Positions 29,598 to 62,491 of a stretch of DNA of 64,000 nt are shown in pieces. A model generated the notes under the pieces. It was not told where the DNA came from. It saw nothing but the letters and a program-made list of their open reading frames with translations, and did no database searches. Both the position numbers and the translations under genes were made by a program. The stretch comes from Rhodanobacter sp. DHG33 (GTDB lineage: Bacteria; Pseudomonadota; Gammaproteobacteria; Xanthomonadales; Rhodanobacteraceae), in NCBI RefSeq assembly GCF_014843005.1, contig NZ_JACYXM010000006.1, forward strand, positions 186,001 to 250,000. The letters run 5' to 3'. Every line of letters begins with the position of its first letter. Positions within the stretch are counted from its first letter, which is position 1.

Positions 29598-29613
29598 CAT
29601 GGATCGATCTAAA
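29598..29613. promoter_or_regulatory. Candidate LacI-type operator, site 1
   Basis: CATGGATCGATCTAAA matches TTTAGATCGATCTAAA at 13 of 16 positions. It lies 48 bp before the beta-mannosidase start and about 215 bp from the divergent transporter start. Confidence 0.7.
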
Positions 29614-29661
29614 TTTGGCGATGACAGAGCCGGTACGCGGCCATACGAGAAGGGGTAGGCG

Positions 29662-32322
29662 ATGAAGAAGCGATGGCCGCGAAGCGTGCCGGCATGCAGC
29701 CCATGGTTGCCGGCACTGGCGGCCCTGATGCTGGCCTTGCCCCTGCCAAGCCTGGCGGCGTCACTGGCGACGCAATCGCTGGACAGCGGCTGGCAGTTCC
29801 GCCTCGCACCCGGCGACAAGCACGCCGCCGATCATCCCGACGCCGCGCAATGGCTGGCTGCCACCGTGCCCGGTATGGTGCAGACCGACCTGCTCGCCGC
29901 GAAGCTGGTGCCCGATCCGTACTGGCGCGACAACGAGGCCAAGATCCAGTGGGTGGGCCTGTCCGACTGGCAGTACCGCAGCAGTTTCAGCATCGACGTC
30001 GCCACGCTGGCGCGCAAGCACGTGGAGCTGGTGTTCGACGGGCTGGACACGTTTGCGGACGTCTCGCTCAACGGCCACAAGCTGCTCGCCGCCGACAACA
30101 TGTTCCGCCGCTGGCGCGTGCCGGTGAAGGCGTGGCTGCATGCGGGTGCGAACACGCTGGAAGTCACCCTGCATTCGCCGATCGCGCGCCTGCAGCCCTG
30201 GTTGCTGAAGCAGCCGTATGCGCTGCCGGGCGAGTTCGACACGCCCTTCGGCGACGAGCCCGAAGGCAAGCAGACGGCCAACTACGTGCGCAAGGCCGCC
30301 TGGCAGTACGGCTGGGACTGGGGTCCGCGCATCGTCGCCGAAGGCATCTGGAGGGACGTGAAGCTGGAAAGCTGGGACGCGCTGCGCCTCGTCGATTTCC
30401 ACATCGCCCAGCCGAAAGTCACGGCGGACGTCGCCGAACTGCAGGCGCAGCTCGACCTCCATGCCGATGCCGCCGGTATGGCCAAGGCCACGCTGCGCTG
30501 GCGCGCGCCGGACGGCGGCACGCAATCGCAGACCAGCGACATCGCGCTGAAAGCCGGCGACAACCACATCGCACTGCCGCTGCGCATCGCCCACCCGCAG
30601 CGCTGGTGGCCTGTCGGCTACGGCGCACCGAACCTGTACGACTTCCACGTCGACGTGGACATGGGCGGCCAGACCGTGGCCAGTGCGGACCGCAGCACCG
30701 GCCTGCGCAGCGTCGAGCTGCGTCGGCAGAAGGATCAGTGGGGCAAGAGCTTCGAGTTCGTGGTGAACGGCGTGCCCATCTTCGCCAAGGGCGCGGACGT
30801 GATCCCACAGGACATGTTCCCGAACCGCGTCACGCCGGCGCGCATCGATGCGATGCTGCAATCCGCGCGCGACGCCAACATGAACATGCTGCGCATCTGG
30901 GGCGGCGGCTACTACTTCGACGACGCGTTCTACGCCGAGGCCGACAAGCTGGGCCTGATGGTGTGGCAGGACTTCATGTTCGGCGGCGCGATCACGCCCT
31001 ACGACAAGGCCTACCGCGACAACACGCGCATCGAGGCCGTCGAGCAGGTGGACCGCCTGCGCGACCATCCCTCCATCGTCATATGGGTGGGCAACAACGA
31101 AGTCGAAACCGCGTGGGAGTCCTGGGGCACCAGCCTCGATCTCAAGGCCAAGCTGGCGAAGGACGAAGCCCGGCGCATCGAGCAGGGCATGCGCGAGCTG
31201 TTCGACCACACGCTGCGCGACGTGGTGGCGTCGCAGTCGCCCGATACGCCGTACTGGCCGAGCACGCCCAGCAGCAATTACGACGACAAGGCCAACGTGC
31301 TGGACAACGGCGACTACCACTACTGGAACGTGTGGTCGGGCGACGCGCTGCCGCCGACGGCCTACCTCGACGTGACGCCGCGCTTCCAGTCCGAATACGG
31401 CCTGCAATCCTTCCCCTCGATGGCGACGCTGCGCAGCGCGCTCGAGCCGTCCGACCTCGACATCGATTCACCCGTGCTGCGCGCGCACCAGAAGTTCGAC
31501 AAGGGCAAGGGCAACCAGCGCCTGTTGATGTACGTGGAGCGCGGCTACGGCAAGCCCAAGGATTTCGCCTCGTTGGTGTACCTCAGCCAGGTGATGCAGG
31601 CCGAAGGCATCCAGCTCGCCGCCGAGCACCTGCGCGCCTCGCGGCCGCAGAGCATGGGTTCGCTGTACTGGCAGCTCAACGACGTGTGGCCGGGCGCCAC
31701 CTGGGCCAGCATCGACTACTACGGTCGCTGGAAGGCGCTGCAATACCATGCCAAGCGCTTCTACGCGCCGCTGCGTGTGGTAGCCCTGCGCAAGGGCGGC
31801 AAGACGCAGGTGTCGCTGGTGTCCGACCGCACCGAGGCGTTCGACGCCGAACTGCGCGTGCGCGTGCTCGGCATGGACGGCAAGACGCTCTGGGAGCGCA
31901 CGCAGCCTGCGCACGTGGCGGCGCTGGCCAGCACGGCCGTCGGCGACTACACCGATGCACAACTGCTGCGTGGCGCCGATCCGCGCCGCACGGTGGCGGT
32001 GTTCGAATTGCTGGAGCACGGCAAGCCGGTTTCGCGTCATCTGCTGTATTTCGATGACGCGAAGAACCTGGCGCTGCCCGACCCCGGCCTGAAGGCGGAG
32101 CTTTCCGCGGACGGCCACAGCGTCACGGTGAGCGCACGGCATCTTGCGCGCGAAGTGTGGCTGGACTTCGCCGATCCCGATGCGCGCCTGTCCGACAACG
32201 CCTTCGACCTGCTGCCCGGCGAATCGGTGACGCTGCATGTCGACAGCACCGCCGATGCGGCCGCCTTGCAGCACTCGTTGACGGTGCGCAGCCTGTACGG
32301 CGCCACGGTAACCGCGCCGTGA
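29662..32322 (+). CDS. Secreted GH2 beta-mannosidase
   Basis: Exo-beta-mannosidase, 886 aa, expected to cleave the core Man-beta-1,4-GlcNAc linkage of N-glycans. The signal peptide ends near residue 33 (LALPLPSLA-AS). Family marks of the mannosidase branch of GH2 are present: the N-terminal jelly roll with VGLSDWQYRSSF, AAWQYGWDWGPR, acid/base E480 in WVGNNEVETAW and nucleophile E578 in FQSEYGLQSF, then C-terminal sandwich domains. The length is normal for the family. First gene of a five-gene plus-strand run; its stop overlaps the GTG of the GH3 gene. The operator at 29598 implies control by the locus LacI regulator. Confidence 0.94.
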   Translation: MKKRWPRSVPACSPWLPALAALMLALPLPSLAASLATQSLDSGWQFRLAPGDKHAADHPDAAQWLAATVPGMVQTDLLAAKLVPDPYWRDNEAKIQWVGLSDWQYRSSFSIDVATLARKHVELVFDGLDTFADVSLNGHKLLAADNMFRRWRVPVKAWLHAGANTLEVTLHSPIARLQPWLLKQPYALPGEFDTPFGDEPEGKQTANYVRKAAWQYGWDWGPRIVAEGIWRDVKLESWDALRLVDFHIAQPKVTADVAELQAQLDLHADAAGMAKATLRWRAPDGGTQSQTSDIALKAGDNHIALPLRIAHPQRWWPVGYGAPNLYDFHVDVDMGGQTVASADRSTGLRSVELRRQKDQWGKSFEFVVNGVPIFAKGADVIPQDMFPNRVTPARIDAMLQSARDANMNMLRIWGGGYYFDDAFYAEADKLGLMVWQDFMFGGAITPYDKAYRDNTRIEAVEQVDRLRDHPSIVIWVGNNEVETAWESWGTSLDLKAKLAKDEARRIEQGMRELFDHTLRDVVASQSPDTPYWPSTPSSNYDDKANVLDNGDYHYWNVWSGDALPPTAYLDVTPRFQSEYGLQSFPSMATLRSALEPSDLDIDSPVLRAHQKFDKGKGNQRLLMYVERGYGKPKDFASLVYLSQVMQAEGIQLAAEHLRASRPQSMGSLYWQLNDVWPGATWASIDYYGRWKALQYHAKRFYAPLRVVALRKGGKTQVSLVSDRTEAFDAELRVRVLGMDGKTLWERTQPAHVAALASTAVGDYTDAQLLRGADPRRTVAVFELLEHGKPVSRHLLYFDDAKNLALPDPGLKAELSADGHSVTVSARHLAREVWLDFADPDARLSDNAFDLLPGESVTLHVDSTADAAALQHSLTVRSLYGATVTAP

Positions 32323-34913
32323 CGAAACGTATCGCCAGCATCGCGGCTATGGCCCTGCTGCTGGCGGCGGGTGGCGCTGCAGCGCAGACGCAAGGCGCCG
32401 AGGCGCAGGCGTCGGCGCTAGTGGCGAAGATGACGCTGGCGGAAAAAGTCTCGCAGCTGCAGAACGACGCGCCGGCGATCCCACGCCTCGGCGTGCCGGC
32501 GTACGACTGGTGGAACGAGGGCCTGCACGGCCACGCGCGCGACGGCTACGCCACCGTGTTTCCGCAGGCCATCGGCCTCGCTGCGAGCTGGGATGCGCCG
32601 CTGCTGCAGGCGGTGGGGACGGCGGTGTCGACCGAGGCCCGCGCCAGCTTCAACGCAGCCGGCGTGGGCCATGCCCACGAGCGCTATCGAGGCCTGACCA
32701 TCTGGTCGCCCAACATCAACATCGACCGTGACCCGCGCTGGGGCCGCGGGCAGGAAACCTACGGCGAGGATCCGTTCCTCACCGGCAGTCTCGCGGTGGC
32801 CTTCGTGCATGGCATCCAGGGCGACGATGCGCTGCACCCGCGCGCCATCGCCACGCCCAAGCATTTCGTGGCGCACAGCGGGCCGGAGACCGGGCGCGAC
32901 AGCTTCGATGCCAAGGTGTCGCCACACGATCTGGAAGACACCTATCTGCCGGCCTTCCGCGCAGCCGTCACCGCAGGCGGCGCAGGCTCGGTGATGTGTT
33001 CCTACAACGCGCTGGACGGCGTGCCGATGTGCGCCAACGCAACGCTGCTGGACACGCGCCTGCGCAAGGACTGGGGCTTCAAGGGCTATGTGGTGTCCGA
33101 CTGCGACGCGGTAGGCGACATCTCGGCCTTCCATCATTACAAGCCCGACGATGGGCAGGCTGCTGCGGCCGCGTTGCGTGCCGGCACCGATCTCGATTGC
33201 GGCCACACCTACGCCAGCCTCGCCGCCATGGTGGGCAAGGGCGAGCTTCCCGAAGCTGCGCTGGATACCGCGCTGGTGCGCCTGTTCACCGCGCGCTATC
33301 GCCTCGGCGAGCTCGGCAGCGACGACAGGTATGCACGCATCGGCACGGACGACATCGACAGCGACGTGCACCGCAAGCTGGCGCTGCAGGCCGCGCAGGA
33401 GTCGCTGGTGCTGCTGAAGAACGCACACGACACGCTGCCGCTGCATGCCGGCCTGCGCCTTGCCGTGATCGGCCCGGACGCGGATACGCTGGAAACGCTG
33501 GAGGCGAACTACCACGGCACCGCGCGTGCGGCGGTGACGCCGTTGCAGAGATTGCGCGCGCGTTTCGGCAACGATCGCGTGAGCTATGCGCAAGGCGCTC
33601 CGGTCGCGATCGGCGTGCCCATTCCGGTGCCGGAGAGCGCGCTGCGCACCGTAGGTGGCGCAGCCGGTCTCACGGGCGAGTACTACGCACATGACGACTT
33701 CCGCGGCACGCCGCGCGTCACGCGCACCGATCGTGTGATCGACTTCGACTGGGATCGCGCGGCGCCTGCCGCCGGTCTCGATGCCGGTCACTACGCGGTG
33801 CGCTGGAGCGGCGAGCTCTTGCCGCCGGGGTCCGGCGACTACGTGCTCGCCTTGCATGTGGACCGTTGCTTCGATTGCGATGCGCACGACGCGTTGCGAC
33901 TGTTCGTGGACGGCAAGCCCGTGCTTGCTGACGATGGCGACGACAAGCACATGCAGGCGAAGCTGCATTTCGCCGACGGCAAGCCGCACAGCTTGCGCAT
34001 AGAGCTGCTGCATCGCGGTCACGACGGCGGCGTGCGCCTGCAGTGGCTGGCGCCGCCTGCGGTGCAACTCGCCGAGGCCGATCGCGCGATGCGCGCGGCG
34101 GATGCAGTGGTCGCCTTCGTCGGCCTGTCGCCCGATGTCGAAGGCGAGGCCTTGCAGGTCGAGGTACCCGGCTTCGCGGGCGGCGACCGCACTTCGCTCG
34201 ATCTGCCGGCACCGCAACGCGCCTTGCTGGAACGCGCCGCGGCATCCGGCAAGCCGCTGGTCGTCGTGTTGATGTCCGGCGGCGCGGTGGCGCTGGACTG
34301 GGCGAAGCAGCACGCCGACGCCATCCTTGCCGCGTGGTATCCGGGGCAGGCCGGCGGCACGGCGATCGCGCAGACCCTGGCGGGCGACACCAATCCTGCT
34401 GGCCACTTGCCGGTGACGTTCTATCGCTCGGTGCAGGATCTGCCGCCGTTCACCAGCTATGCGATGCAGGGGCGCACCTACCGCTATTTCCAGGGCACGC
34501 CGCTGTATGCCTTCGGCCATGGCTTGAGCTACACGCGCTTCGCCTATGCGGCGCCCGCATTGTCGACGGATGCACTCAAGGCGGGCGGCACCTTGCAGGT
34601 GAGCGCCGAGCTGCGCAACGCCGGATCGCGCGCGGGCGACGAAGTGGTGCAGGTGTACCTGGATGTGCCGCCGTCACCGCTGGCGCCACGGCATGCGTTG
34701 GTCGGCTTCCAGCGCGTGCACCTCGCACCGGGCGAAACGCGGCACGTGAGCTTCACGCTGTCGCCGCGGCAATTGAGCAGCGTGGACGCGGCGGGCATGC
34801 GCGCCGTGGTGCCCGGCCGCTATCGTGTGTTCATCGGCGGCGGCCAGCCCGGCGACGCTGCAGGTGTCGCATCCACATTCACCATCAACGGCAAAGAGGT
34901 GCTGGCTCCATGA
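32319..34913 (+). CDS. Secreted GH3 enzyme with PA14 insertion, beta-xylosidase-like
   Basis: 864 aa counted from a GTG that overlaps the preceding stop (GTGA, 32319-32322); this gives a clean signal peptide (MTKRIASIAAMALLLAAGGAAA). Nucleophile D261 is in YVVSDCDAVGD; the cysteine after SD is usual in beta-xylosidase-type GH3 members. The (alpha/beta)6 part is interrupted by a PA14 domain (about residues 445-585, GLTGEYYAHDDF to VRLQWLAPP), and a fibronectin III-like domain ends the protein. In Xanthomonas the GH3 enzyme at the same place before GH125 and GH92, NixI, removes the beta-1,2-xylose of plant N-glycans. By position this protein should do the same; beta-glucosidase activity is the alternative. 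Confidence 0.9.
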   Translation: MTKRIASIAAMALLLAAGGAAAQTQGAEAQASALVAKMTLAEKVSQLQNDAPAIPRLGVPAYDWWNEGLHGHARDGYATVFPQAIGLAASWDAPLLQAVGTAVSTEARASFNAAGVGHAHERYRGLTIWSPNINIDRDPRWGRGQETYGEDPFLTGSLAVAFVHGIQGDDALHPRAIATPKHFVAHSGPETGRDSFDAKVSPHDLEDTYLPAFRAAVTAGGAGSVMCSYNALDGVPMCANATLLDTRLRKDWGFKGYVVSDCDAVGDISAFHHYKPDDGQAAAAALRAGTDLDCGHTYASLAAMVGKGELPEAALDTALVRLFTARYRLGELGSDDRYARIGTDDIDSDVHRKLALQAAQESLVLLKNAHDTLPLHAGLRLAVIGPDADTLETLEANYHGTARAAVTPLQRLRARFGNDRVSYAQGAPVAIGVPIPVPESALRTVGGAAGLTGEYYAHDDFRGTPRVTRTDRVIDFDWDRAAPAAGLDAGHYAVRWSGELLPPGSGDYVLALHVDRCFDCDAHDALRLFVDGKPVLADDGDDKHMQAKLHFADGKPHSLRIELLHRGHDGGVRLQWLAPPAVQLAEADRAMRAADAVVAFVGLSPDVEGEALQVEVPGFAGGDRTSLDLPAPQRALLERAAASGKPLVVVLMSGGAVALDWAKQHADAILAAWYPGQAGGTAIAQTLAGDTNPAGHLPVTFYRSVQDLPPFTSYAMQGRTYRYFQGTPLYAFGHGLSYTRFAYAAPALSTDALKAGGTLQVSAELRNAGSRAGDEVVQVYLDVPPSPLAPRHALVGFQRVHLAPGETRHVSFTLSPRQLSSVDAAGMRAVVPGRYRVFIGGGQPGDAAGVASTFTINGKEVLAP

Positions 34914-36349
34914 CCATGGACACGCTCACCCGGCGCGACATGCTCAAGCTGATCGGTGCCAGCGCCGTCGCGCTGGCGTCGCCGCGTTTCGCCATCGCGG
35001 CCGCGAAGCAGGCGCGTCCCGATCACCGTCCGCCACCGGGCAAGCGCAAGTTCACCAGTGCGGCGGTGGAAGCGGAGATCGCGCGGGTGCAGGCGAAGAT
35101 CGGCGATCCCGAACTCGCGTGGCTGTTTGGCAACTGCTATCCGAACACGCTGGATACCACCGTGCATATCGGCACCCTGCGCGGCAAGCCGGACACCTTC
35201 ATCGTCACCGGCGACATCGACGCGATGTGGCTGCGCGATTCCTCGGCGCAGGTGTGGCCGTACCTGCCGCTGGCGGCGAAGGACGAGTCGCTGCGACGGC
35301 TGTATCGCGGGCTGATCCACCGCCATGCGGCATGCATCGCGATTGATGCCTACGCCAATGCTTTCCTGCCGGATCCGCAGGCACACACCACGCTGAGCTG
35401 GGCGCAGCACGACCTCACCGACATGAAGCCCGGCGTGGCAGAGCGCAAGTGGGAGATCGACTCGCTGTGCTGGACGATCCGCATCGCGCACGGCTACTGG
35501 AAAGCCACCGGCGACCGCGTACCGTTCGACGACGACTGGCGCGCGGCGATGCAGCAGGTGCTGGCGACGTTCCGCGCGCAGCAGCGCAAGCACGGTCCGG
35601 GTCCGTACCATTTCCAGCGCGCCTCCGCCGTGCCCACCGACACCGTGCCGCTGGACGGCTACGGCAATCCGGCGTTGCCGGTGGGGATGATCTTCTCGAT
35701 GTTCCGTCCGTCGGACGATGCCTGCATCTATCCGTTGTTCGTACCGGCGAATGCGTTCGCCGTGGTATCGCTGCGGCAACTGGCCGAAATGTCGCGAACA
35801 CTGCATGGCGATGCCGCGTTCGCCGCCGACTGCGAGGCGCTGGCCGGCGAGGTGCAGGCGGCGCTGGAAAAGTACGCCGTGATGAGCGACGCCGGCCAGG
35901 ACTTCTGGGCCTATGAAACGGACGGCTACGGCAACCAGCTGTTCATGGACGACGCCAACGTACCCAGCCTGCTGGCCTTGCCGTATCTCGGCTTCTGCAC
36001 CCCTGACGATGCGCGTTATCGCCGCACCCGCGCGCGCGTCTGGAGCGAGCACAATCCGTATTTCTTCCGCGGCAAGGCGGCGGAGGGCATCGGCGGACCG
36101 CACGAAGGCCTGCGAATGATCTGGCCGATGTCGCTGATGGTGCGTGCGCTCACCAGCGCGGACACGGGCGAGATCCGCCAGTGCCTGCACTGGCTCAAGA
36201 CCACGCACGCCGGCACCGGTTTCATGCACGAAGCCTTCGATCAGGACGATCCCGCGAAATTCACGCGGCCCTGGTTCGCCTGGGCCAACAGCCTGTTCGG
36301 CGAGCTGATCGTCGAGCTGGCCGACCACCACCCCGAGCTGCTGCGGTAA
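34910..36349 (+). CDS. GH125 exo-alpha-1,6-mannosidase with Tat signal
   Basis: 479-aa enzyme of the metal-independent GH125 family, which removes alpha-1,6-linked mannose. The family signature is clear: NCYPNTLDTTV, VTGDIDAMWLRDSSAQVWPY, ERKWEIDSLCW, and near the C-terminus HEGLRMIWPMSL and FMHEAFDQDDPAKFTRPWF. The N-terminus TRRDMLKLIGASAVALA is a twin-arginine signal, so it should be exported folded to the periplasm. The ATG at 34910 overlaps the GH3 stop by ATGA, with GAGG 10 nt before it. In the nix cluster the GH125 enzyme NixJ acts after the beta-xylosidase, in agreement with this gene order. Confidence 0.95.
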   Translation: MTMDTLTRRDMLKLIGASAVALASPRFAIAAAKQARPDHRPPPGKRKFTSAAVEAEIARVQAKIGDPELAWLFGNCYPNTLDTTVHIGTLRGKPDTFIVTGDIDAMWLRDSSAQVWPYLPLAAKDESLRRLYRGLIHRHAACIAIDAYANAFLPDPQAHTTLSWAQHDLTDMKPGVAERKWEIDSLCWTIRIAHGYWKATGDRVPFDDDWRAAMQQVLATFRAQQRKHGPGPYHFQRASAVPTDTVPLDGYGNPALPVGMIFSMFRPSDDACIYPLFVPANAFAVVSLRQLAEMSRTLHGDAAFAADCEALAGEVQAALEKYAVMSDAGQDFWAYETDGYGNQLFMDDANVPSLLALPYLGFCTPDDARYRRTRARVWSEHNPYFFRGKAAEGIGGPHEGLRMIWPMSLMVRALTSADTGEIRQCLHWLKTTHAGTGFMHEAFDQDDPAKFTRPWFAWANSLFGELIVELADHHPELLR

Positions 36350-36386
36350 CCGCCGCACCCCACATTCCCCGAAGGAGCCCACGAAC

Positions 36387-38837: not shown

Positions 38838-38853
38838 GCAGAGAGGCACGCAC

Positions 38854-44373: not shown

Positions 44374-44467
44374 CACGGGGCGCAAGGCCACGCCGGGGAT
44401 GCATCAGTGCATCTCCGGCCATGCGGCCTCGCAGAGAGCGCAATTCAAATTCCCCGACGGAGAAATC

Positions 44468-51700: not shown

Positions 51701-51806
51701 GATCCCGTACTACGCCGGCGGCTTCGAGTTCGTCACGACCGGACAGACCGGCAGCGAGTACGACGGTCGTGAGTTGTTCTTGACCTTTGATTACAAGCTC
51801 AACTGA
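48786..51806 (+). CDS. TonB-dependent receptor
   Basis: 1006-aa outer-membrane receptor read from ATG 48786, with GGGAGGGG just upstream; an earlier in-frame ATG at 48669 would precede a signal peptide by 39 residues and is rejected. Signal peptide residues ~1-29 (ALLSPLAVQAQT). TonB-box-like LQTVTVTGSMIPRVEVEG; plug with VNLRNLGAGFSLLLINGVRV and LASGASSIYGSDAVAGVVN, a pattern common in large receptors of Xanthomonadales and Caulobacter; barrel end ELFLTFDYKLN. Operator at 48557 places it in the regulon. It belongs to a different receptor clade from the one at 41170, so the two probably bind different glycan fragments. A terminator follows. Confidence 0.93.
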   Translation: MRQAIALRRSALVSALSIALLSPLAVQAQTASSGDTQSAQSGTPQANPSSAQPDQSKAKNLQTVTVTGSMIPRVEVEGPAPVVTITGTQIKQQGFTTLWEFLDSLPQMGQPPQDPASWGATAVNARPVNLRNLGAGFSLLLINGVRVVDYPQPLGAQSSFQNYANLPSGMIDHVEILASGASSIYGSDAVAGVVNVILKKNYQGNDLQVTGGGATRGGRSYGDINFFGGESGENWHILYNVEKSNRTALWGSDRPYQDSVSDAGYGAWNSADRMFGYQYAPAGAIALSATNGNGQYITPPAGTCGKFSNSQLSESHSVSTSGTQITGTTDNGAFCSQPNLFQNWVLTPGSRTTNGYLAGEYDFSNGLQLYGSAALYDTVGISQTQLPFFGYGSPFYDSSTGQTINALDRQLTAQEIGTSANTHDREQNWNITAGLRGTMFDGNFNWDFSVNSQKYIVREDFTGMDQAAMNNFFLGQQMGTTAGGLPIYAINWQRFWNPITPQQYSQFAVNGENTAESSLNQAQFRVNGDLFKFPWVDESVGWAAVVEAADNDFLLSPDPREANGATFVDPFYNDNFGGGSRQRFSLGTEFRVPIVNSLTWTISGRLDKYHDASSADIARTWGTGLEWRPFDSLLIRGSYGTNFKAPDMAAIYQGGSVVPQGIYEDNLQCINAIKAGNTSSTWCNGSIQRPQSQWYEQRTVGGPDLVPETGHSWTYGFVWQVPGVEGLSVSADYWHMGVDNAIEYISQSTVLQDEAGCLTGYLADGSTGLSPYTAHVRGSAYCQMVIGDVQRNAAGQITSVQSGPINEASLYVSGVDASLQYRLNTEDYGNFTTSVNYTDNLAYKQRVLSSDPLLNTRYNNVASRVTWIGTWQKGDWNASLSGVRDGRMRAPGYGNCNTLPNGIQPSPVTVVSPDGTTVNTGACQIGGANVADTLYYGHVPTWITWSGSIGWQINPETKLSFTVSNIFNRVSSIPYYAGGFEFVTTGQTGSEYDGRELFLTFDYKLN

Positions 51807-51832
51807 TCCCTCTCAGGTTGGGCTTTCCCCCG

Positions 51833-53684: not shown

Positions 53685-53719
53685 ATTCGCCTCCGGAAAT
53701 GCTGCCAGGCCAGCACAAA

Positions 53720-53750
53720 GATGCCCCCATGTCTGAGACATGGGGGCATC
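53720..53750 (-). terminator. Perfect 14-bp hairpin between TonB receptor and sulfotransferase genes
   Basis: GATGCCCCCATGTC, loop TGA, GACATGGGGGCATC (53720-53733 / 53737-53750), 29 bp beyond the receptor stop on the minus strand and followed by TTTGTG. Likely a terminator or attenuator that lowers read-through into the sulfotransferase gene. Confidence 0.75.
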
Positions 53751-53778
53751 GCTGTCAAGCAAGATGCAACGCTGGCGG

Positions 53779-56700
53779 TCAGTTGAACTGCCAGCGGAAC
53801 ACCAACTGGCCGACGCGTCCTGCCTGGAATGTGTTCGGCGACATGAAGGCGGCGTTGTACTGGCCGCCATTCGTGATGTTGGTGTTGTACGAGGTCACGG
53901 TCTGGCTGTTGAAGAGATTCATCACCTTCAGATCCAGCGAGAAGCTGTTCTTGTCGTAGGCCCAGTCGTAACCGATGTCCAGATCTACCTGCTTGTACGA
54001 CGGCAGGCGGCCGTAGCTGCCGCGGGTATAGATGATGGTGTTCGACGTCGGATTGCCGTTCAGCGCGTTCGGCAGGGTGTTGCAGTAGAACGCGTTGTTG
54101 TTGTTGGTCTGCCCGGACGAGATGTCCGTGCTGTTCGGGTACGGGTAGTTCGACAGACAGTCGATCGGGCCGCCCGCGTAATACGTCAGTGCACCGCCTA
54201 CGCGCAGGCCTTTCAGGAACTCGCCGTAGTGGGCGAACTTGTAGTAACCGAACACCTTGAACGTCGACGGGATATCGTCGCCCAGCCGACCGCCTGCGCC
54301 CTGCAGGAAGGCCGAGCTCGACAGCGCGCCGTCGTAGCCGGTGGCACCGGTGTTGTTGCCGCCGCCCTCGTAGTCGGTGGTGCCATCGGTGTTGCCGAAC
54401 TCGTTGCGCCAGGTGTAGGAGGCGCTGAGGTAGTAGGGCTCGTCGTCGGAGTACGCGTGATCCAGGGTCAGGCTGGCCTGGTAGATCCGGCGATGCAGCG
54501 ACGGATAGCCAAGATAGCTGGCCGGGAAGGTGTACATGCTCAGCGGGCTGTTGGGTCCGTTCAACTGCACCGGAATGGTGATGTCCTTGCCGGGAGTGAT
54601 CAGGTAGTCGCCGAGCAGCGAGGCGTTCGGATAGCCGTGGGCTTTGAGGTAGCTGGCCAGCTGGCCGGTGTTGCCGTCGATGTTCGGCAGGCCGGTGAGC
54701 TTGCTGGTGAACAGCGAGGCACCGGCGACCCAGTTGTCGCCCAGTTTCTGCTGGGCATAGACCACGAACTGGCGAAGCTTCGCGTTCTGCGTCGTGGTCG
54801 AAATGAACTGGTTGGGCGTCAGGTAGTGCAGGCCGCTGCCGTTGCTGCCCTGTACGCCGCCCACCTGGGTAAGGCCGGTCGGGACGCCATCGGGCGATAC
54901 ACCGGTGTACACATAGTAGGTGTTGGTGTGGATGTAGCCCGCGCCCGGCGTGCCGCCATAGGCATTGAAGTAGAGCGGGATGCCTTCGCTGTATTCGCCC
55001 GCGCTGGCGCCGATCTTCAGGCTGGAATCGCCGTGGACATCCCAGGCCACACCGACGCGGGGCACGAAGTTGCCCTTGCTGTACATCTTGACGTTGATGT
55101 TGTCGGTCATGGCGTAGTTGTCGTAACGACCGCCGAAGTATCCCGTCCAGTTGTCGGCGAAGTGCCAGCTGTCGGCCAGGTAGTAGCCGTAAGTGGGAGA
55201 GGTGTTGTAGTAGATGCGCGGCGCGTAGTTCGACGTCACGTACTTCGTGCCCGGCGCGAACGGCTGGCCGGTGGCTGGGTTGATGGTCTGGCCGTTGATG
55301 ACGCAGGCCTCCGTCGGGCCCGTCGCCGTGCTGCAGTAGGTGAAGGTGTACGTGTTGGGGTTCGGGATATTGGACTGCGCCATGCTGGGGCTGTATTGCT
55401 CGGCGCCGAACGTGATTTCATGGTTTTCGCTCGGATCCCACGTGAAGTCGATGCGCGATCCCATCATGCGGTACTTCAGGACGTAGTCGCTGCCTGCACC
55501 GTTGTGCGGCGGATTCGTGTTCTTTCCCGTGTCCGGGTCGTTGAACGTGATGTTCGGGACGTCGATGCCGTACAGGTTGTAGCTGGAGAAATACTGCTGC
55601 GAGGTGCCAGCCATCGCCGTGACGGAGAACGTGTCGGTGATCTGGCCGTGGTAGTTGGCGACCAGCATCTTGTCGTGCCACGCATTGCCGCTCCAGTTCT
55701 GCAGCGCGGGTGCCGCGCTGGAGGCGTCGAACGGCGTGGCCAGCGGGTACTGGGATTGTGCCTGGTAGGCGGTCTGGCGATCGCCGAACACGTTCAGCGT
55801 GTGGCCGGGCGCGATGTTCCAGGTGAGGTTGATCAGGAACTGTTTGTTGCGATTGGTGTTGAGGTTCTTGTTCGAGCTGTCGACGGTTGTGGTCGGGGTG
55901 CTGCCCTGTACGCCTTGGGCGTAGTTGTTCGGCTGGAGTTCGGCCAACGCGTAGAAGAACAGCGTGTCCTTCACGATGGGGCCGGATGCCCAGTAGTCCT
56001 GCAGCAGGCTGGGCGACCAGTGATTGGCCTGGTTGTTGTTTACGATCTGCCCGTTGAGGTTGTAGGTGGTCTTGAGGTTCTCGTTGAGCATGCCCGAGGC
56101 TGGCGTGAACGCGAGATCGACACCGCCCTTGAAGTCGTTCGAACCCTGCTTGATCGTGCCGGAGACGATGCCGCCCATGGCGCTGCCGTACTTCGCGTCC
56201 ATGCCGCCGTTGATGGTGGACACGCTGGCCAGGGCTTCGTTCGGGATCTTGTCCGGCGCGCCTCCCTGCTGCATGTCGGTCACGTTGAATTCGTTGATGA
56301 AGTACCGGTTCTCTGTGCCCGATGCGCCATTGAACTGCGGCGAGTTGCCGTGCGAGCTGGTGATGGCGGCCACGTTCGATTGCATCGAAGCCACGGCGAG
56401 CAGATCCGGATTGATCAGCGGCAGCCGGTTGATCTCGGTCGAGGTCCAGGTCTGCACCTGCTGGCTGGTCGTGACGTCGATCGCATTGACCGTGGGGCGG
56501 CTGGCGTTGACGGTCACCGAGTTCAGGTTGGTCACGTTCTTGCCGGCCGCACTCGCGAAAACGACGGCGCTGTTGGAGCCGGCGAGCACGCTCACGCCGC
56601 GCTGATCGACGACCTGACCGTCGCGCAGCAATTTGACGACATAATCGCCGGGCATCAGGCCGGTAACCACGTAGCGGCCGTTGGCATCGGCATGCGCAGT

Positions 56701-56859
56701 GCTGTCGTAGCCCGTCGCCGGATTGGTTACTTCTGCCGTGACATTCTTGCCCTCGGGCAAATTGCCGTAGACGCCGCCTGTAATGGCCTGCGCGTACGCC
56801 GCGCTGCTGACCAACAGCGTCGCGACAATTGCCGTGGATAGCACACTCTTGCGATACAT
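53779..56859 (-). CDS. Oar-like TonB-dependent receptor under locus operators
   Basis: 1026-aa outer-membrane receptor from ATG 56859 with GGGAGGGGG upstream. Signal peptide residues ~1-24 (LLVSSAAYAQA); carboxypeptidase-regulatory-like domain (~25-95: NVTAEVTNPATGYDSTAHAD, GDYVVKLLRDGQ); plug with LNSVTVNASRPTVNAIDV and ENRYFINEFNVTDMQQGG; barrel end GQLVFRWQFN. It is a distant homologue of the receptor at 13950, but unlike that one it has a strong promoter flanked by two copies of the LacI-type palindrome. Cargo may be a glycopeptide rather than a free glycan, judged from Oar-type relatives; this is an inference. Confidence 0.93.
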   Translation of the reverse strand: MYRKSVLSTAIVATLLVSSAAYAQAITGGVYGNLPEGKNVTAEVTNPATGYDSTAHADANGRYVVTGLMPGDYVVKLLRDGQVVDQRGVSVLAGSNSAVVFASAAGKNVTNLNSVTVNASRPTVNAIDVTTSQQVQTWTSTEINRLPLINPDLLAVASMQSNVAAITSSHGNSPQFNGASGTENRYFINEFNVTDMQQGGAPDKIPNEALASVSTINGGMDAKYGSAMGGIVSGTIKQGSNDFKGGVDLAFTPASGMLNENLKTTYNLNGQIVNNNQANHWSPSLLQDYWASGPIVKDTLFFYALAELQPNNYAQGVQGSTPTTTVDSSNKNLNTNRNKQFLINLTWNIAPGHTLNVFGDRQTAYQAQSQYPLATPFDASSAAPALQNWSGNAWHDKMLVANYHGQITDTFSVTAMAGTSQQYFSSYNLYGIDVPNITFNDPDTGKNTNPPHNGAGSDYVLKYRMMGSRIDFTWDPSENHEITFGAEQYSPSMAQSNIPNPNTYTFTYCSTATGPTEACVINGQTINPATGQPFAPGTKYVTSNYAPRIYYNTSPTYGYYLADSWHFADNWTGYFGGRYDNYAMTDNINVKMYSKGNFVPRVGVAWDVHGDSSLKIGASAGEYSEGIPLYFNAYGGTPGAGYIHTNTYYVYTGVSPDGVPTGLTQVGGVQGSNGSGLHYLTPNQFISTTTQNAKLRQFVVYAQQKLGDNWVAGASLFTSKLTGLPNIDGNTGQLASYLKAHGYPNASLLGDYLITPGKDITIPVQLNGPNSPLSMYTFPASYLGYPSLHRRIYQASLTLDHAYSDDEPYYLSASYTWRNEFGNTDGTTDYEGGGNNTGATGYDGALSSSAFLQGAGGRLGDDIPSTFKVFGYYKFAHYGEFLKGLRVGGALTYYAGGPIDCLSNYPYPNSTDISSGQTNNNNAFYCNTLPNALNGNPTSNTIIYTRGSYGRLPSYKQVDLDIGYDWAYDKNSFSLDLKVMNLFNSQTVTSYNTNITNGGQYNAAFMSPNTFQAGRVGQLVFRWQFN

Positions 56860-57089: not shown

Positions 57090-57105
57090 TTTAGATCGAT
57101 CTAAA
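57090..57105. promoter_or_regulatory. Candidate LacI-type operator, site 4 (perfect palindrome)
   Basis: TTTAGATCGATCTAAA is a perfect 16-bp palindrome here and extends to 20 bp (AATTTAGATCGATCTAAATT, 57088-57107). It lies just downstream of the predicted start of receptor transcription and is the best example of the motif in the window. Confidence 0.88.
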
Positions 57106-57132
57106 TTTCACGGAAAGATACTGCGCCCACTA

Positions 57133-57161: not shown

Positions 57162-57167
57162 CAGGAA

Positions 57168-57183
57168 TTTGTATTGATCTAAA
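57168..57183. promoter_or_regulatory. Candidate LacI-type operator, site 5
   Basis: TTTGTATTGATCTAAA matches at 13 of 16 positions, with one perfect half. It lies 6 bp upstream of the -35 box; centre-to-centre distance to site 4 is 78 bp. Confidence 0.65.
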
Positions 57184-57734: not shown

Positions 57735-58970
57735 TTATCGGCGCCCGTGCAATTGCAGCAGCTCGTAGCATGCGCCCATGGTGTGATAGTCCACCTTGCC
57801 GGCAGGGCTCTTCTCGTCGCTGTACTTGCGGTTGTCGCGCGTGAGGATGCGGTACCAGGCGCCGTATTCGTGATCGACGAAGTGCTTCCACGAATAGGCC
57901 CACAGCTTGTCGTGCCATGCGGAGTAGCTGGCGTCCCCGGTACGTGCATGGAGCAGGGCGGCGGCAGCGAGCGACTCGGCCTGCACCCAGAAATACTTGT
58001 CGTCGTCGCACACGCTGCCGTCGGGCGCGAAGCCGTAGCAGAGGCCGCCATGCACCTCGTCCCAGGAATGCTTCACCGCGGTGTCGAACAGGTGGCGAGC
58101 GACGGGAAGGATCCAGTGTTCCTCGCGGTTGCGTTCCAGCAGCAGCGGCTCGAGGATCATCAGCAGCTTGGCCCACTCGGTCTGGTGGCCGGGCTGGAAG
58201 CCCCAGGGGCGGAACAGGTGCTTGGGGTTGTCCTTGTTGTAGTCCCAGTCGATGCGCCACTGCGCGTCGTAGTGCTCCCACACCAGGCCATCGGCCAGCG
58301 CGGCCTGGCGGCGCGTCATGTGGTCGGCGAGCGTGAGCGCGCGGTCGAGGTAGCGCACATCGTCGCTGGCCTGGTACGCGGCGAGCATCGCCTCGCACAT
58401 GTGCATGTTGGCGTTCTGGCCGCGATAGCTGCTGAAGTTCCAGTCGGCATCGGCCTCGTCGCGGTACAGGCCTGCCTCGGCGTCCCAGAAGCGGCGTTCC
58501 AGCAGATCCCAGGTTTCGTCCATCCACGCGGCGGCTTCGGCGGCGCCGGCCTTGCGCGCGCTGGAATAGGCCAGCAGCACGAAGGCGACACCATAGGCAT
58601 GGTTGGTACGGTCTTCCGCCACGCCGTCGCGGATCGTCCATGCATAGCCGCCGCTCTGCGCATTGCGGTGCACGTCGCGCAGGTAGCTCAGGCCGTGGCG
58701 AGTGGCATCGCGGTATTCGGCGGCGAGCTTCGCGTCGTCGGCGAACTCGATGGCCGCCATCGCGTAGTTGAAGACGAAGCGCGTGCTACTCACCAGGTGG
58801 CGATGGCTGCGGTCGTAGATCGTGCCGTCGTCCTTGTAGTAGTGGAAGAAGCCGCCGGCGGGATCGATGGCATGCGGGTGGTAGAACGCCATGGTGTCGG
58901 CGATGTGCCGGCGCAGGAAGGCGGGCGAATTGAAATCGGGCAGCGGCGTGGCGGGCAGTACGTGGGGCAT
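57735..58970 (-). CDS. Mannose isomerase / N-acylglucosamine 2-epimerase-family enzyme
   Basis: 411-aa (alpha/alpha)6-barrel protein of the AGE superfamily. Typical motifs are AIDPAGGFFHYY, STRFVFNYAMA, NANMHMCEAMLAAY, FRPWGFQPGHQTEWAKLL, SWDEVHGGLCYGF and DYHTMGACYE, with catalytic histidines in the HQTEW and YHTM motifs. Length and motifs fit D-mannose isomerase (YihS-type and its Xanthomonas relatives), which makes fructose from mannose, better than GlcNAc 2-epimerase. The fructokinase gene 11 bp upstream in the same operon supports this. Cytoplasmic. Confidence 0.9.
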   Translation of the reverse strand: MPHVLPATPLPDFNSPAFLRRHIADTMAFYHPHAIDPAGGFFHYYKDDGTIYDRSHRHLVSSTRFVFNYAMAAIEFADDAKLAAEYRDATRHGLSYLRDVHRNAQSGGYAWTIRDGVAEDRTNHAYGVAFVLLAYSSARKAGAAEAAAWMDETWDLLERRFWDAEAGLYRDEADADWNFSSYRGQNANMHMCEAMLAAYQASDDVRYLDRALTLADHMTRRQAALADGLVWEHYDAQWRIDWDYNKDNPKHLFRPWGFQPGHQTEWAKLLMILEPLLLERNREEHWILPVARHLFDTAVKHSWDEVHGGLCYGFAPDGSVCDDDKYFWVQAESLAAAALLHARTGDASYSAWHDKLWAYSWKHFVDHEYGAWYRILTRDNRKYSDEKSPAGKVDYHTMGACYELLQLHGRR

Positions 58971-58981
58971 GGATGCAGGAC

Positions 58982-59956
58982 TCAGGAATGGGATGCCATG
59001 AAGGCAAGAACTTCGTCGGTGGTGGGCAGCGAGACGAACGAGCCTTGCCGTGTCACCGCGATCGCGGCGGCGGCGGCGGCGTAGCGCAGCGTGGCGTGCA
59101 GGCGCGGCAGCGTAGTGACCAGCGTGTCGAGGTCGCCTGCGCCGATCCGCTGTTCGGCCAGCTGCTGCAGCAGGCCGCCCACGAAGGCGTCGCCTGCGGC
59201 CGTGCTGTCCACCATCGGCACGCGGTAGGCGGGCAGTTCGCCATCGGCGTCAGGGTGGAACCAGCGCAATGCGTTGGGGCCGTCAGTGACTATCAGCAGG
59301 CGCGTGTGGCCTTGCCACAGGCGCTCCAGCAAGGCGTCTTCGCCGTCCACCGCCAGCCACGCGAATTCTTCCGCACTGAGTTTCACCAGGTCGGCAAGCT
59401 GCAATGCCGGCCAGACATCCGCGCGCGCATCCACGTTGCGCGGCCACAGCGCGGGACGCAGGTTGAGGTCGAAGCTCACCAGGGCGCCGGAAGCCCGCGC
59501 GCGGCGCATGCCTTCGCGCGTGGTTTCCGCGGCGGCGGGTTCCGTCATGCTGTTGGAGCAGATGTGGAAGACGGCGGTGTCGTCGAATGCATCCGCGTGG
59601 AAGTGCTCGGGACGGAACAGCAGGTCGGCCGAAGGCGGCCGATAGAAGCTGAAACTGCGGTCGCCGTGCGCGTCCAGCGCCACGAAGGCCAGGGCGGTGT
59701 TCGCCTCGCCGGTGCGCTCCACGTCGCGGGTGTCCACGTTGGCGTGCTTCAGGCTGTCCAGCAGCAGGTCGCCGAACAGGTCGGTGCCCAGCATGCCGGC
59801 GAAGCGTGCGGCGCCGCCCAGCTTCGCCACCGCCACCGCCACATTGGCGGGTGCACCGCCGGCGAAGGGCACGAAGGCGCGCGGATAACCGTGCGGGTCG
59901 CGGCCCTCGGCATGGAAATCGATCAGTGCTTCGCCGAAGCAGAGTACGGAAGGCAT
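58982..59956 (-). CDS. PfkB-family fructokinase
   Basis: 324-aa ribokinase-fold kinase. Substrate-side motifs are LCFGEALIDF and PFAGGAPANVAVAVAKLGG; the catalytic signature is DSTAAGDAFVGGLL, an AAGD variant of the usual GAGD with the base aspartate kept. With the isomerase after it, mannose would go to fructose and then fructose 6-phosphate, by-passing mannose 6-phosphate isomerase. Start ATG 59956 is 14 bp from the transporter stop, so the genes are co-transcribed. Other 2-keto-sugar kinases of PfkB type cannot be excluded. Confidence 0.92.
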   Translation of the reverse strand: MPSVLCFGEALIDFHAEGRDPHGYPRAFVPFAGGAPANVAVAVAKLGGAARFAGMLGTDLFGDLLLDSLKHANVDTRDVERTGEANTALAFVALDAHGDRSFSFYRPPSADLLFRPEHFHADAFDDTAVFHICSNSMTEPAAAETTREGMRRARASGALVSFDLNLRPALWPRNVDARADVWPALQLADLVKLSAEEFAWLAVDGEDALLERLWQGHTRLLIVTDGPNALRWFHPDADGELPAYRVPMVDSTAAGDAFVGGLLQQLAEQRIGAGDLDTLVTTLPRLHATLRYAAAAAAIAVTRQGSFVSLPTTDEVLAFMASHS

Positions 59957-59970
59957 GGTGCGGATAACCC

Positions 59971-61287
59971 TTAGCGGACGGCGGCGTCGCGGATCTTCGA
60001 TCCGCTGCGGCCGTAGAAAATGATGTAGGCGTAGCAAAGCAGCGGCAGCACGAAGGCGTGCTGGATGCCGATTTGGTCGGCCAGCACGCCCTGCAGCAGC
60101 GGCACCAGCGCGCCGCCGACGATGGCCATGATGAGCAGGCTGGACGCCTTGTCGGTGAGCGGCCCCAGTCGTTCGATGCCCAGCGCGAAGATGGTGGGAA
60201 ACATGATGGAGTTGAACAGGCCGACGGCAATGATGCTGACCATCGCCACGTTGCTCGAGCTCAGCATGCTGGTCACCACCAGCAGGCCGGCAATGGCGGC
60301 GAACGCCGCCAGCAGCTTGCGCGGATCGAGCCACGCCAGCAGCGCGGAGCCGAACAGCCGGCCGACCATCGCGCCGCCCCAGTACAGCGACACGTAGTGC
60401 GAAGCCTGCTGCTCGCTGATGTGGCCGATCTGCGGCAGGGAGATGTAGTTGATCATGAAGCTGCCGATCGACACCTCGGCGCCCACGTAGCAGAAGATCG
60501 CGATCACGCCGAACTTCACGTGCGGTACGCGCAACGCGTCGAGCAGAGTGTGCTTGCCGCCGCTGGCCAGCTGGGTGTTCTCGGACAGCGAGGGCAGGCG
60601 GAACAGCCAGACGATCACCGCCAGCAGCACCAGCACCAGCGCCAGGCCAAGGTATGGCCCCTGCACGGATTGCGCTTCGTGGGTGCGATAGGCCAGCTGC
60701 TGCGCGGCGGGCAGCGCATCGATCTGCGCGCCGCTCAGCACCGTGTTGGAGAGGATCAGCCAGGCGCCAAACAGCGGCGCCAGCGTGGTGCCTAGCGAGT
60801 TCAGCGCCTGCGCCAGGGTGAGGCGGCTGGAGCCGGTGCGCGCGGGGCCGAGCAGGGCCACGTACGGATTGGCCGCCACCTGCAACACGGTGATGCCGGT
60901 GGCCAGCACGAACAGCGCGCCGAGGAACAGCGCGTAGCTGTGCCATTGCGCCGCGGGCCAGAAGGCCGCCGCGCCCACGCCGGCGATCGCCAGACCGGTC
61001 ACCATGCCGCGCTTGAAGCCCAGCCTCTCCACCAGCCAGCCCGAAGGCAGCGACATCAGGAAGTACGCGCCGAAGAAGGTGAACTGCACCAGCATCGCGC
61101 GGGTGTAGTCCAGCTCGAACACCGCCTTGAGATGCGGGATCAGGCTGTCGTTCAACGCCGTGAGGAAGCCCCACATGAAGAACACCGCGGTGGTGACCGC
61201 GAATGCGCCGGGGTAGTCGGTGTAGCGGCCGCTGTCGGCACCGTTGCTCACGGTGGAAGAAGGCGATGGAGCGGAGGCAAAGGCCAT
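59971..61287 (-). CDS. FHS-type MFS sugar permease (GluP/FucP-like)
   Basis: 438-aa inner-membrane symporter with ~12 spans. Hallmarks of the fucose:H+ / glucose-galactose symporter group are FFMWGFLTALNDSLIPHLK, LVQFTFFGAYFLMSLPSG and LQVAANPYVALLGP. Relatives carry fucose, glucose, galactose or mannose; the operon context favours mannose, with released fucose as an alternative. ATG 61287 is chosen; an in-frame ATG at 61395 would overlap the lacI gene by 86 bp and add non-homologous residues. It starts 22 bp after lacI. Confidence 0.93.
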   Translation of the reverse strand: MAFASAPSPSSTVSNGADSGRYTDYPGAFAVTTAVFFMWGFLTALNDSLIPHLKAVFELDYTRAMLVQFTFFGAYFLMSLPSGWLVERLGFKRGMVTGLAIAGVGAAAFWPAAQWHSYALFLGALFVLATGITVLQVAANPYVALLGPARTGSSRLTLAQALNSLGTTLAPLFGAWLILSNTVLSGAQIDALPAAQQLAYRTHEAQSVQGPYLGLALVLVLLAVIVWLFRLPSLSENTQLASGGKHTLLDALRVPHVKFGVIAIFCYVGAEVSIGSFMINYISLPQIGHISEQQASHYVSLYWGGAMVGRLFGSALLAWLDPRKLLAAFAAIAGLLVVTSMLSSSNVAMVSIIAVGLFNSIMFPTIFALGIERLGPLTDKASSLLIMAIVGGALVPLLQGVLADQIGIQHAFVLPLLCYAYIIFYGRSGSKIRDAAVR

Positions 61288-61309
61288 TCGTTTCCCCAGG
61301 GACGGAAGA

Positions 61310-62368
61310 TCAGGCGGTAGCTGGCGGGCAACTGCTGCCGCGCACGACCAGTTGCACCGGTACCACGATGCGTTGCGGTTCGGCTTGTGGCTCACGCAGG
61401 CGCTGCAGCAGCAATTCGGCAGCCTGCTTGCCGCGCGCGCGCGGCGTGGAGGCCAGCGTGGTGAGCGGCGGCGCGCTGAGCCCGGCTTCGGCGATGTCGT
61501 CGAAACCGGTGACGGCGAAGTCGCGGCCGGGCTGGATGCCGCGCTGGTACAGGCCCAGCATCAGGCCCAGCGCCACCGCGTCGTTGTAGCAGACGGCGGC
61601 CGTAGGGGCGGGCGATTCGAAGAACAGCGCACCGCATTGCGCCGCGGCGTCCACGCGGTTCGGTGCGCATTCGATGCGCCAATGCGGCTCGATGCGCAGG
61701 CCGGCCGCCTTCATCGCCTCGACGTAACCGGCATGGCGCTGCTGGCAGGAGCTGGAGGCGGCATGGCCGCCGAAGAAGGCGATGCGCTTCTGGCCCAGCG
61801 CGATCAGGTGTTCGGTGGCCAGGCGTGCGCCACGCTGGTTGTCCAGCATCAGCCGGTCCCACGGCGCGTCGGGCGAAACCTTGCCGGCGAGTTCGCGGTT
61901 GAACAGCAGCAGCGGCGTGCGCACGCCGATGGTCCTGAGCACCTGGCCGGCATCGCTGCCTTCGGCGGGCGAGAGGATCACGCCCGCCGGGTCGTGTTCC
62001 AGCAGCGAACCCAGCACGGCCTGTTCGCGCGTCACCGATTCGCCGGTGCTGCCGAGCAGGGTGACGTAACCGCCTCCGCCCAGCGCCTCGTCCACGCCGG
62101 TGGCGAACTCGGCGAAGAACGGGTTGGCGAGGTCGTTCAGCACCAGTGCGATGCTGGACGAGGTGCGCCGGCGCAGGTTGGCGGCGGCACGGTTGTACAC
62201 GTACCCCTGCCTGCGCAATTCTTCTTCGACGCGGGCGCGCGTGAGCTTGTTCACCAGCGGGCTGCCGCGCAGCACCAGCGACACGGTGGCGCGCGAGACG
62301 TCGCAGCCTGCGGCGATGTCGGCGAGGGTTACTTTGCGGTTGGCGTGAGGCGTGCTGTCCGTGGCCAT
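61310..62368 (-). CDS. LacI-family repressor, probable regulator of the N-glycan/mannose locus
   Basis: 352 aa. Helix-turn-helix residues ~13-36 (VTLADIAAGCDVSRATVSLV), hinge helix near residues 55-65 (YNRAAANLRRR), then a periplasmic-binding-like sugar domain (IALVLNDLANPFFAEFATGV, GVRTPLLLFNREL, AVTGFDDIAEAGLSAPPLTT). First gene of the operon with the transporter, kinase and isomerase. Two palindrome variants lie between it and the divergent GH92 gene, as expected for autoregulation. Mannose, fructose or a phosphorylated derivative is the likely inducer; this is an inference from the operon. Confidence 0.94.
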   Translation of the reverse strand: MATDSTPHANRKVTLADIAAGCDVSRATVSLVLRGSPLVNKLTRARVEEELRRQGYVYNRAAANLRRRTSSSIALVLNDLANPFFAEFATGVDEALGGGGYVTLLGSTGESVTREQAVLGSLLEHDPAGVILSPAEGSDAGQVLRTIGVRTPLLLFNRELAGKVSPDAPWDRLMLDNQRGARLATEHLIALGQKRIAFFGGHAASSSCQQRHAGYVEAMKAAGLRIEPHWRIECAPNRVDAAAQCGALFFESPAPTAAVCYNDAVALGLMLGLYQRGIQPGRDFAVTGFDDIAEAGLSAPPLTTLASTPRARGKQAAELLLQRLREPQAEPQRIVVPVQLVVRGSSCPPATA

Positions 62369-62384
62369 GCTCGTCGTTTGGGCG

Positions 62385-62400
62385 ATTGGAACGATCAAAA
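62385..62400. promoter_or_regulatory. Candidate LacI-type operator, site 6
   Basis: ATTGGAACGATCAAAA matches the palindrome at 12 of 16 positions and shares TTGGAACGATC with site 7. It lies 17 bp before the lacI start, suiting autoregulation. Confidence 0.6.
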
Positions 62401-62475
62401 TGTACCGGAAGCCTGCCGCATGCGGTTCCGCGATGCAACATGCATGGATGTGCGGAGCGATGCTAGCGTTCGGGA

Positions 62476-62491
62476 CTTGGAACGATCTAAA
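62476..62491. promoter_or_regulatory. Candidate LacI-type operator, site 7
   Basis: CTTGGAACGATCTAAA, 13 of 16, with one perfect GATCTAAA half; 22 bp before the GH92 start. Centre distance to site 6 is 91 bp. Confidence 0.7.

Follow-up and report, generated by a model that had tools for sequence, protein, structure and literature searches.

A Palindrome Predicted to Be the Operator of One LacI-Family Regulator at Mannoside- and Glycan-Related Genes of Rhodanobacter sp. DHG33

Introduction

Local sugar regulons under LacI-family proteins, including five ManR groups for mannose and mannosides, are described by Ravcheev et al. 2014 (PMC4052901), where an even palindrome with a CG centre is given as typical of the family and more than 75% of the LacI sites are placed 30–140 bp from the start codon. 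This study concerns a 64,000-nucleotide stretch of the soil bacterium Rhodanobacter sp. DHG33 (contig NZ_JACYXM010000006.1, positions 186,001 to 250,000 of the forward strand; hereafter the window), in which the palindrome TTTAGATCGATCTAAA recurs with variants at seven sites. The palindrome very probably serves as operator for P0001, a LacI-family protein whose gene is at 61310–62368, and the genes behind it are predicted to form one regulon.

The locus resembles the LacI local sugar regulons of PMC4052901 in its LacI-type protein, its 16-bp even CG-centred palindrome, its predicted autoregulation, its sites at sugar genes, and its tandem sites. It differs in the spacing of paired sites, for which that paper gives peaks at 13, 22, and 32 bp, whereas the lacI pair described here is mostly 88–94 or 102–106 bp apart. 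The main text of the same paper holds no word beginning with "xanthom".

Two systems of Xanthomonas campestris are also comparable. The nix/nag N-glycan clusters (PMC5700972) likewise combine a TonB receptor with N-glycan glycosidases and have a separate N-acetylglucosamine (GlcNAc; nag) cluster; the term LacI does not occur in the available text of that paper, which gives no nix motif or LacI. The SuxR sucrose locus (PMC1790865) also brings a LacI-type repressor, an MFS transporter, and a TonB receptor together in one sugar locus, and it differs in being a single four-gene locus for sucrose. P0001 has its domain order in common with E. coli LacI and MalI, and its top NCBIfam match is MalI, below the cut-off. 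Among the matches listed in a search of the open-access literature, which did not extend to the motif letters, none was about this regulator as far as titles and abstract openings show. LacI sugar regulons of this design are already known, and this regulator has possibly been predicted in RegPrecise.

Results

Seven Operator Sites in the Window

Scanning the window for TTTAGATCGATCTAAA with up to three mismatches gave six sites against 0.03 expected (standard deviation 0.17), and none of 100 shuffled sequences reached six. A first-pass annotation, made from the sequence alone, had listed seven copies or variants, all of which were recovered: 57090 has no mismatch, 40947 one, 48557 two, and 29598, 57168, and 62476 three each, while 62385 (ATTGGAACGATCAAAA), with four mismatches to the literal palindrome and two to the consensus of relatives, TTTRGAWCGWTCYAAA, is correctly called a variant. 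With TTTRGAWCGWTCYAAA at up to three mismatches, exactly these seven sites were obtained in the whole window, in line with the earlier observation that none stands before the TonB receptor at 13950. The CG centre that had been attributed to the sites is present in six of the seven and fails at 57168 (TTTGTATTGATCTAAA), which reads TG; its letters, the TG included, are identical in the relative G080 (L114:4080).

By our own gene calls, all seven sites are intergenic, and their placement upstream of locus genes was confirmed. One lies in the divergent region between the transporter gene MFS1 and a GH2 gene, one before each of the TonB-dependent receptors (TBDRs) TBDR1 and TBDR2, two before TBDR3, and two in the divergent lacI/GH92 region. 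Each promoter region of the block has one or two sites and none falls within an operon, the operon limits being judged from gene spacing. The operators, to which no strand is assigned, are as follows.

29598–29613: operator CATGGATCGATCTAAA, between the divergent MFS1 and the GH2 beta-mannosidase operon; letters and place identical in G080 (L113:4001).
40947–40962: operator TTTAGATCGATATAAA, with TBDR1 (41170) starting about 207 bp downstream; TBDR1 homologs elsewhere are also preceded by sites.
48557–48572: operator TATGGATCGATCTAAA, upstream of TBDR2; letters identical in G080 (L113:14929); TBDR2 orthologs in L008, L010, L011, L012, and L016 are also preceded by sites.
57090–57105: perfect operator TTTAGATCGATCTAAA, located some 230 bp ahead of TBDR3; counterparts before TBDR3 at L009:14384 and L114:4001.
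57168–57183: second TBDR3 operator TTTGTATTGATCTAAA, 78 bp from the first; kept in L009 and L114.
62385–62400: lacI-proximal operator ATTGGAACGATCAAAA, ending 16 bp before the lacI start codon; a conserved block in an alignment of ten sequences.
62476–62491: GH92-proximal operator CTTGGAACGATCTAAA, 21 bp before the GH92c start and 91 bp from the lacI-proximal site; a conserved block.

The Motif before Orthologous lacI Genes

As the lacI promoters of relatives often read TTTGGATCGTTCCAAA or variants of it, the literal palindrome was replaced by TTTRGAWCGWTCYAAA, and the span from -450 to +40 of lacI was scanned in the best 80 of 104 lacI loci of relatives, in which the nearest by LacI are Rhodanobacter, followed by Dyella and others. 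A site precedes the orthologous lacI in 60 of the 80 loci at up to one mismatch, in 67 at up to two, and in 75 at up to three, while 60 permuted control palindromes (the first 60 of 200 generated) reached on average 0.03, 0.68, and 2.7 loci, respectively. A CG centre is found in all 111 distinct sites before orthologous lacI, a set that was picked with a CG-containing motif at up to two mismatches.

The two lacI sites rank with the best-conserved blocks of the ten-sequence alignment, and an additional conserved block of the TTGCATCGCGGAA type lies between them. The spacing of the pair, in the 61 loci that have one, is 88–94 bp in 47 and 102–106 bp in 11, with 272, 306, and 347 bp once each, so that the paired operators show no fixed helical phase. 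Since the two sites before the P0001 lacI are asymmetric, a strict palindrome scan (seven of eight pairs) detected nothing there. The two copies at lacI had been noted as what an autoregulator is expected to have, and the sites before orthologous lacI, together with the distribution across genomes described below, support this predicted autoregulation.

Sites in the Whole Genome

In the genome of strain DHG33 (3.76 Mb), TTTRGAWCGWTCYAAA at up to two mismatches gave 11 sites and its reversed control gave none. Seven are the window sites, and the other four occupy three further regions on two other contigs.

C22:327955: perfect site, before another GH92 mannosidase (L001).
C22:699779 and 699851: a pair of sites at a distance of 72 bp, in front of the gene for an orphan secreted protein (L002:2562–4604).
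C33:137233: site between a glucokinase-TonB receptor-GH20 group and a NagP-like sugar transporter (MFS) followed by another lacI (L006/L090); it has a counterpart in G080 (L123).

Nine of the 11 sites stand before glycan-gene families and two before the orphan, so that an equal density of the motif away from sugar genes, which the first-pass annotation had named as evidence against its reading, is not what the genome holds. Its claim of a single LacI regulon across 33 kb is supported as to the single LacI and needs extension as to the 33 kb, in view of the three regions outside. Of the 22 matches at exactly three mismatches, five were inspected. Three were rejected as background, namely L003 (at the start of an MFS gene), L004 (inside a peptidase-M1-type gene), and L005 (inside a fatty-acid gene); the other two lie before another lacI (C38:24471) and in the upstream region of the orphan (C22:700030).

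These counts bear on the idea that the motif is an artefact of chance or base composition. The octamer core GATCGATC alone is mildly over-represented (four in the window against 1.4 expected, with four reached in 5 of 100 shuffles), which would favor such an explanation, but the site is made by the outer TTT/AAA arms and not by the core octamer. Together with the absence of six sites from all 100 shuffles, the 11 sites against none in the genome control, and the conservation of the sites in relatives, an artefact is practically dismissed. Chance, composition, and GATC repeats were set aside by the shuffles, the core-octamer counts, the permuted palindromes, and the reversed genome control.

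Assignment of the Motif to P0001

The link of the motif to this LacI is strong, though comparative in nature. In the family (157 genomes), 99 of the 99 genomes with this LacI have a site at up to one mismatch, against 5 of the 58 without it (G124, G110, G159, G189, and G234), giving a Fisher p of 1.7e-36 that is uncorrected for relatedness. Sites outnumbered control matches by 339 to 6 in the LacI-bearing genomes and by 10 to 4 in the LacI-less ones. Nine genera hold both LacI-bearing and LacI-less genomes. Sites are missing from all LacI-less members of seven of these genera, and only G189 (86% complete) in g3 and G234 (93%) in g6 depart from this pattern. The only LacI-less genome of g1, G258, comprises only 1.5 Mb. 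In G189 and G234, which have four and two strong sites, no LacI was found; the gene may be absent from the assembly or replaced.

At the order level, sites at up to two mismatches occur in 96 of the 121 genomes. The comparison was restricted to the families f1 and f2 (37 of the 121 genomes), and the remaining 84 were left out because the reversed control there was often equally frequent. With LacI presence defined by a best identity of 63% or more, the 27 genomes with LacI have 2–14 sites at up to two mismatches and the 10 without it have 0–2 (U test, p 4e-6). The 80 orthologs show next to no variation in the recognition helix segment VSRATVSLVLRGSP or in the hinge ANLRRRTS.

Could a regulator of a different type, or a promoter element common to sugar genes, account for the sites? 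The start codon is close to 29598, 62385, and 62476 and 200–310 bp away from 40947, 57090, and 57168 (the TBDR2 start is uncertain), so that three window sites are farther out than most LacI sites in PMC4052901. The even CG-centred palindrome is, however, typical of the LacI family in the same source, and 53 of the 58 family genomes without this LacI are also without sites, which makes this explanation highly improbable.

Use of the operators by a different one of the genome's seven LacI proteins, either instead of P0001 or alongside it, is also very unlikely, if somewhat less so; the foremost candidate would be that of C38. Of the six others, only the C38 protein has a palindrome of similar core within 450 bp, its lacI being preceded by GCTGGAACGTTCCAAC, and on C33 the site stands before an MFS gene that has another lacI behind it. 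However, strong sites flank the P0001 orthologs in most of the 80 loci and track its presence and absence in the 157 genomes, the recognition helix of the C38 LacI differs (KKTVSR against RATVSL in P0001), and the C33 region holds another palindrome, ACAACGTTGT, twice, which may serve the C33 regulator. Cross-talk of the C38 LacI with the P0001 operators is possible, judging from the related core. The assignment to P0001 is preferred over both of these explanations.

The C38 lacI (L089:6544–7557) follows a GH2 gene whose product has an Ig domain of the glucosaminidase type (Ig_GlcNase), and the palindrome of this lacI (L089:6472) is inside the end of that GH2 gene, 84 bp before the start of the part of lacI coding for the helix-turn-helix (HTH). 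The two copies of ACAACGTTGT (L006:2150–2163 and 2441–2455) are in the glucokinase/NagP-like intergenic region beside the regulon site and are perhaps the operator of the neighboring second LacI. Overlapping palindromes, ATGATATCGATATCAA and AAGATATCGATATCAT, also occur before another lacI gene in L093 near 4492–4521 (C22, about 35.5 kb).

Targets in Other Genomes

Eight genomes were scanned for sites at up to two mismatches, and six relatives among them were annotated. A site was credited with a glycan target if a gene for a glycosidase, a PNGase, a TonB receptor, glucokinase, or LacI, or else a cutC-GH2-GH3 operon, began within 600 bp of it. In the six relatives, this applied to 45 of 62 sites at up to two mismatches and to 16 of 18 at up to one; by genome, the values were 7/7 in G080, 6/9 in G022 (one being a GH13 gene), 7/14 in G039, 9/11 in G074, 7/10 in G032, and 9/11 in G096. 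G080 has neither the TBDR1 unit nor the site belonging to it; it keeps the remaining six window sites.

New types of target in the relatives were GH76 (perfect site, L095), PNGase A (L127), and GH20 (L125, and L110 behind TBDR2). In the 80 lacI loci, 156 of 158 sites at up to two mismatches are no more than 600 bp from lacI or from a reference-gene homolog, and the other two have no such neighbor; 124 of the 158 are positioned in the lacI promoter, and these counts are non-independent, as the loci are related and lacI-centred. The perfect site in L095 (G039 C11) is 276 bp before the GH76 gene and suggests yeast or fungal mannan as an alternative substrate.

Several observations weigh against the regulon of P0001 proposed here. 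The highest values for any single control palindrome were 2, 33, and 66 of the 80 lacI loci at up to one, two, and three mismatches; the counts at two and three mismatches alone are therefore weak, and the case rests on the one-mismatch counts and the genome control. Five of the 80 loci (L074, L075, L076, L077, and L086) have no site before lacI at up to three mismatches; the Xanthomonas loci L074, L076, and L077, with the orthologous LacI, have sites before GH92 and TBDR (TBDR1) homologs rather than before lacI. The genomes compared are related, so the p-values overstate independence, and in the genera g4 and g69 the strong sites are listed solely beside lacI, so that the co-occurrence there indicates autoregulation and not a wide regulon. 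At up to three mismatches, the scan of the DHG33 genome is mostly background (33 against 23 in the reversed control), and a glycan gene start within 600 bp is missing for 17 of the 62 sites (up to two mismatches) and 2 of the 18 (up to one) in the six relatives. Finally, of the two homologs of the orphan in LacI-bearing genomes, one (G095, L139) has no site.

Genes of the Block and the Proposed Mechanism

The genes of the window that are connected with the operators are listed below.

27849–29381 (-): MFS1 transporter, divergent from GH2.
29662–32322 (+): GH2 with mannosidase-type Ig domains (beta-mannosidase; Pfam), first gene of the operon 29662–40719.
32319–34913 (+): GH3 glycosidase with PA14 domain (Pfam); start approximate.
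34910–36349 (+): GH125, alpha-mannosidase family (Pfam); start approximate.
36387–38837 (+): GH92a, alpha-mannosidase family (Pfam).
38836–40719 (+): GH2b glycosidase, last of the GH2 operon; start approximate.
41170–44373 (+): TBDR1, TonB-dependent receptor (Pfam).
44366–46864 (+): GH92b, alpha-mannosidase family, in the TBDR1 unit.
46895–48316 (+): GH29 alpha-L-fucosidase, in the TBDR1 unit.
48669–51806 (+): TBDR2, TonB-dependent receptor (Pfam); start uncertain.
53779–56859 (-), start approximate: TBDR3, TonB-receptor-like by size and context; in Pfam, CarboxypepD_reg alone, below the cut-off.
57735–58970 (-): AGE-family sugar isomerase/epimerase; top NCBIfam match D-mannose isomerase, below the cut-off.
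58982–59974 (-): PfkB-family sugar kinase; top NCBIfam match fructokinase, below the cut-off.
59971–61395 (-): MFS2, a FucP/GluP-group sugar symporter that scores above the gluP and fucP model cut-offs; read after lacI.
61310–62368 (-): lacI (P0001), 352 aa, with a LacI HTH and a periplasmic-binding-type sensor.
62513–64000 (+): GH92c, alpha-mannosidase family, extending beyond the window end; full gene L007:2514–4853.

Directly after TBDR3, at 52101–53870 (-), lies a TPR-sulfotransferase gene, which is also kept in G080 (L113/L114).

P0001 matches PF00356 with 33.1 bits (cut-off 27) and PF13377 with 111 bits. E. coli LacI carries a C-terminal tetramer helix of the lac type. The alignment of P0001 stops at residue 334 of the 360 residues of E. 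coli LacI with one P0001 residue left; this helix seems to be absent from P0001, and lac-style looping by a tetramer is unlikely because P0001 is without the C-terminal extension of E. coli LacI.

We propose that a P0001 dimer would sit on TTTRGAWCGWTCYAAA and repress transcription, with binding, dimer state, and repression all inferred. In the window, the repressed units would belong to five promoter regions, with operon limits likewise estimated: MFS1 / GH2-GH3-GH125-GH92-GH2; TBDR1-GH92-GH29; TBDR2; TBDR3; and lacI-MFS-sugar kinase-isomerase / GH92. Elsewhere, three regions would be repressed, namely the fourth GH92, the orphan secreted protein, and glucokinase-TonB receptor-GH20 / NagP-like transporter. 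With the two sites of the divergent region lying 16 bp from the lacI start and 21 bp from that of GH92c, a dimer bound there could shut off both promoters.

Mannose or a mannose-containing breakdown product would release P0001, an effector suggested by the lacI operon, since this combines a symporter, a fructokinase-like kinase, and a mannose-isomerase-like enzyme. A route from mannose through fructose to fructose-6-phosphate, with mannose as the inducer, is on balance slightly favored by this gene content. Import would run through the TonB receptors, and the enzymes would take apart N-glycans of the high-mannose or hybrid type, or alpha-mannan, yielding mannose, GlcNAc, and fucose. Judged from the gene set, the substrate is likely to be high-mannose N-glycans or alpha-mannan, and the enzyme set resembles the bacterial tools for high-mannose N-glycans and alpha-mannan as presented in a review (PMC10154615).

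The Orphan Secreted Protein and the GlcNAc Genes

The assignment of regulator, motif, and targets spans two families, which we take to be Rhodanobacteraceae and Xanthomonadaceae, and the genome scan (11 against 0) is specific enough to name members outside the locus. Such a scan can pick out uncharacterized glycan enzymes, for which the orphan is a candidate, and it would tie together the use of mannose and GlcNAc from N-glycans. The most interesting remainder is the orphan and the tie to the GlcNAc genes.

The orphan is a 680-aa open reading frame with a signal-peptide-like start and two operators upstream, and it has the conserved stretches IDTIDFDDEN, LQAYSGG, and GFLWLYDD. The pattern DxxDxDxE is a signature of GH18 enzymes. 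The DTIDFDDE of the orphan fits this pattern; DAIDLDDE of the nearest homolog keeps it and DAANFDDE of the next keeps it in part, with no profile match. The repeated C-terminal domain matches AziU2/Azi28 weakly (full-length PDB search, E about 2e-05), and the N-terminal domain gave no usable match in Pfam (E up to 5), NCBIfam, or a PDB profile search. Three other genomes among the 121 have relatives of the orphan (G100, G095, and G052): the G100 copy has a site 41 bp upstream and does not fully fit DxxDxDxE, the G095 copy fits the pattern and has no site, and the copy in G052, which is without this LacI, has no site either.

Based on these features, we tentatively suggest that the orphan could represent a new family of secreted glycan-active enzymes that frees N-glycans or cuts mannan outside the cell, and that P0001 might co-regulate the GlcNAc branch (glucokinase-TonB receptor-GH20 / NagP-like) in a joint mannose–GlcNAc N-glycan circuit. 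This suggestion is somewhat doubtful, and our estimate of it was lowered slightly because the G100 copy only partly fits DxxDxDxE and the signature comes without a profile match. Near the orphan, at L002:7492–8514, lies a gene with a Tle1-like phospholipase catalytic domain of the type VI secretion system (T6SS).

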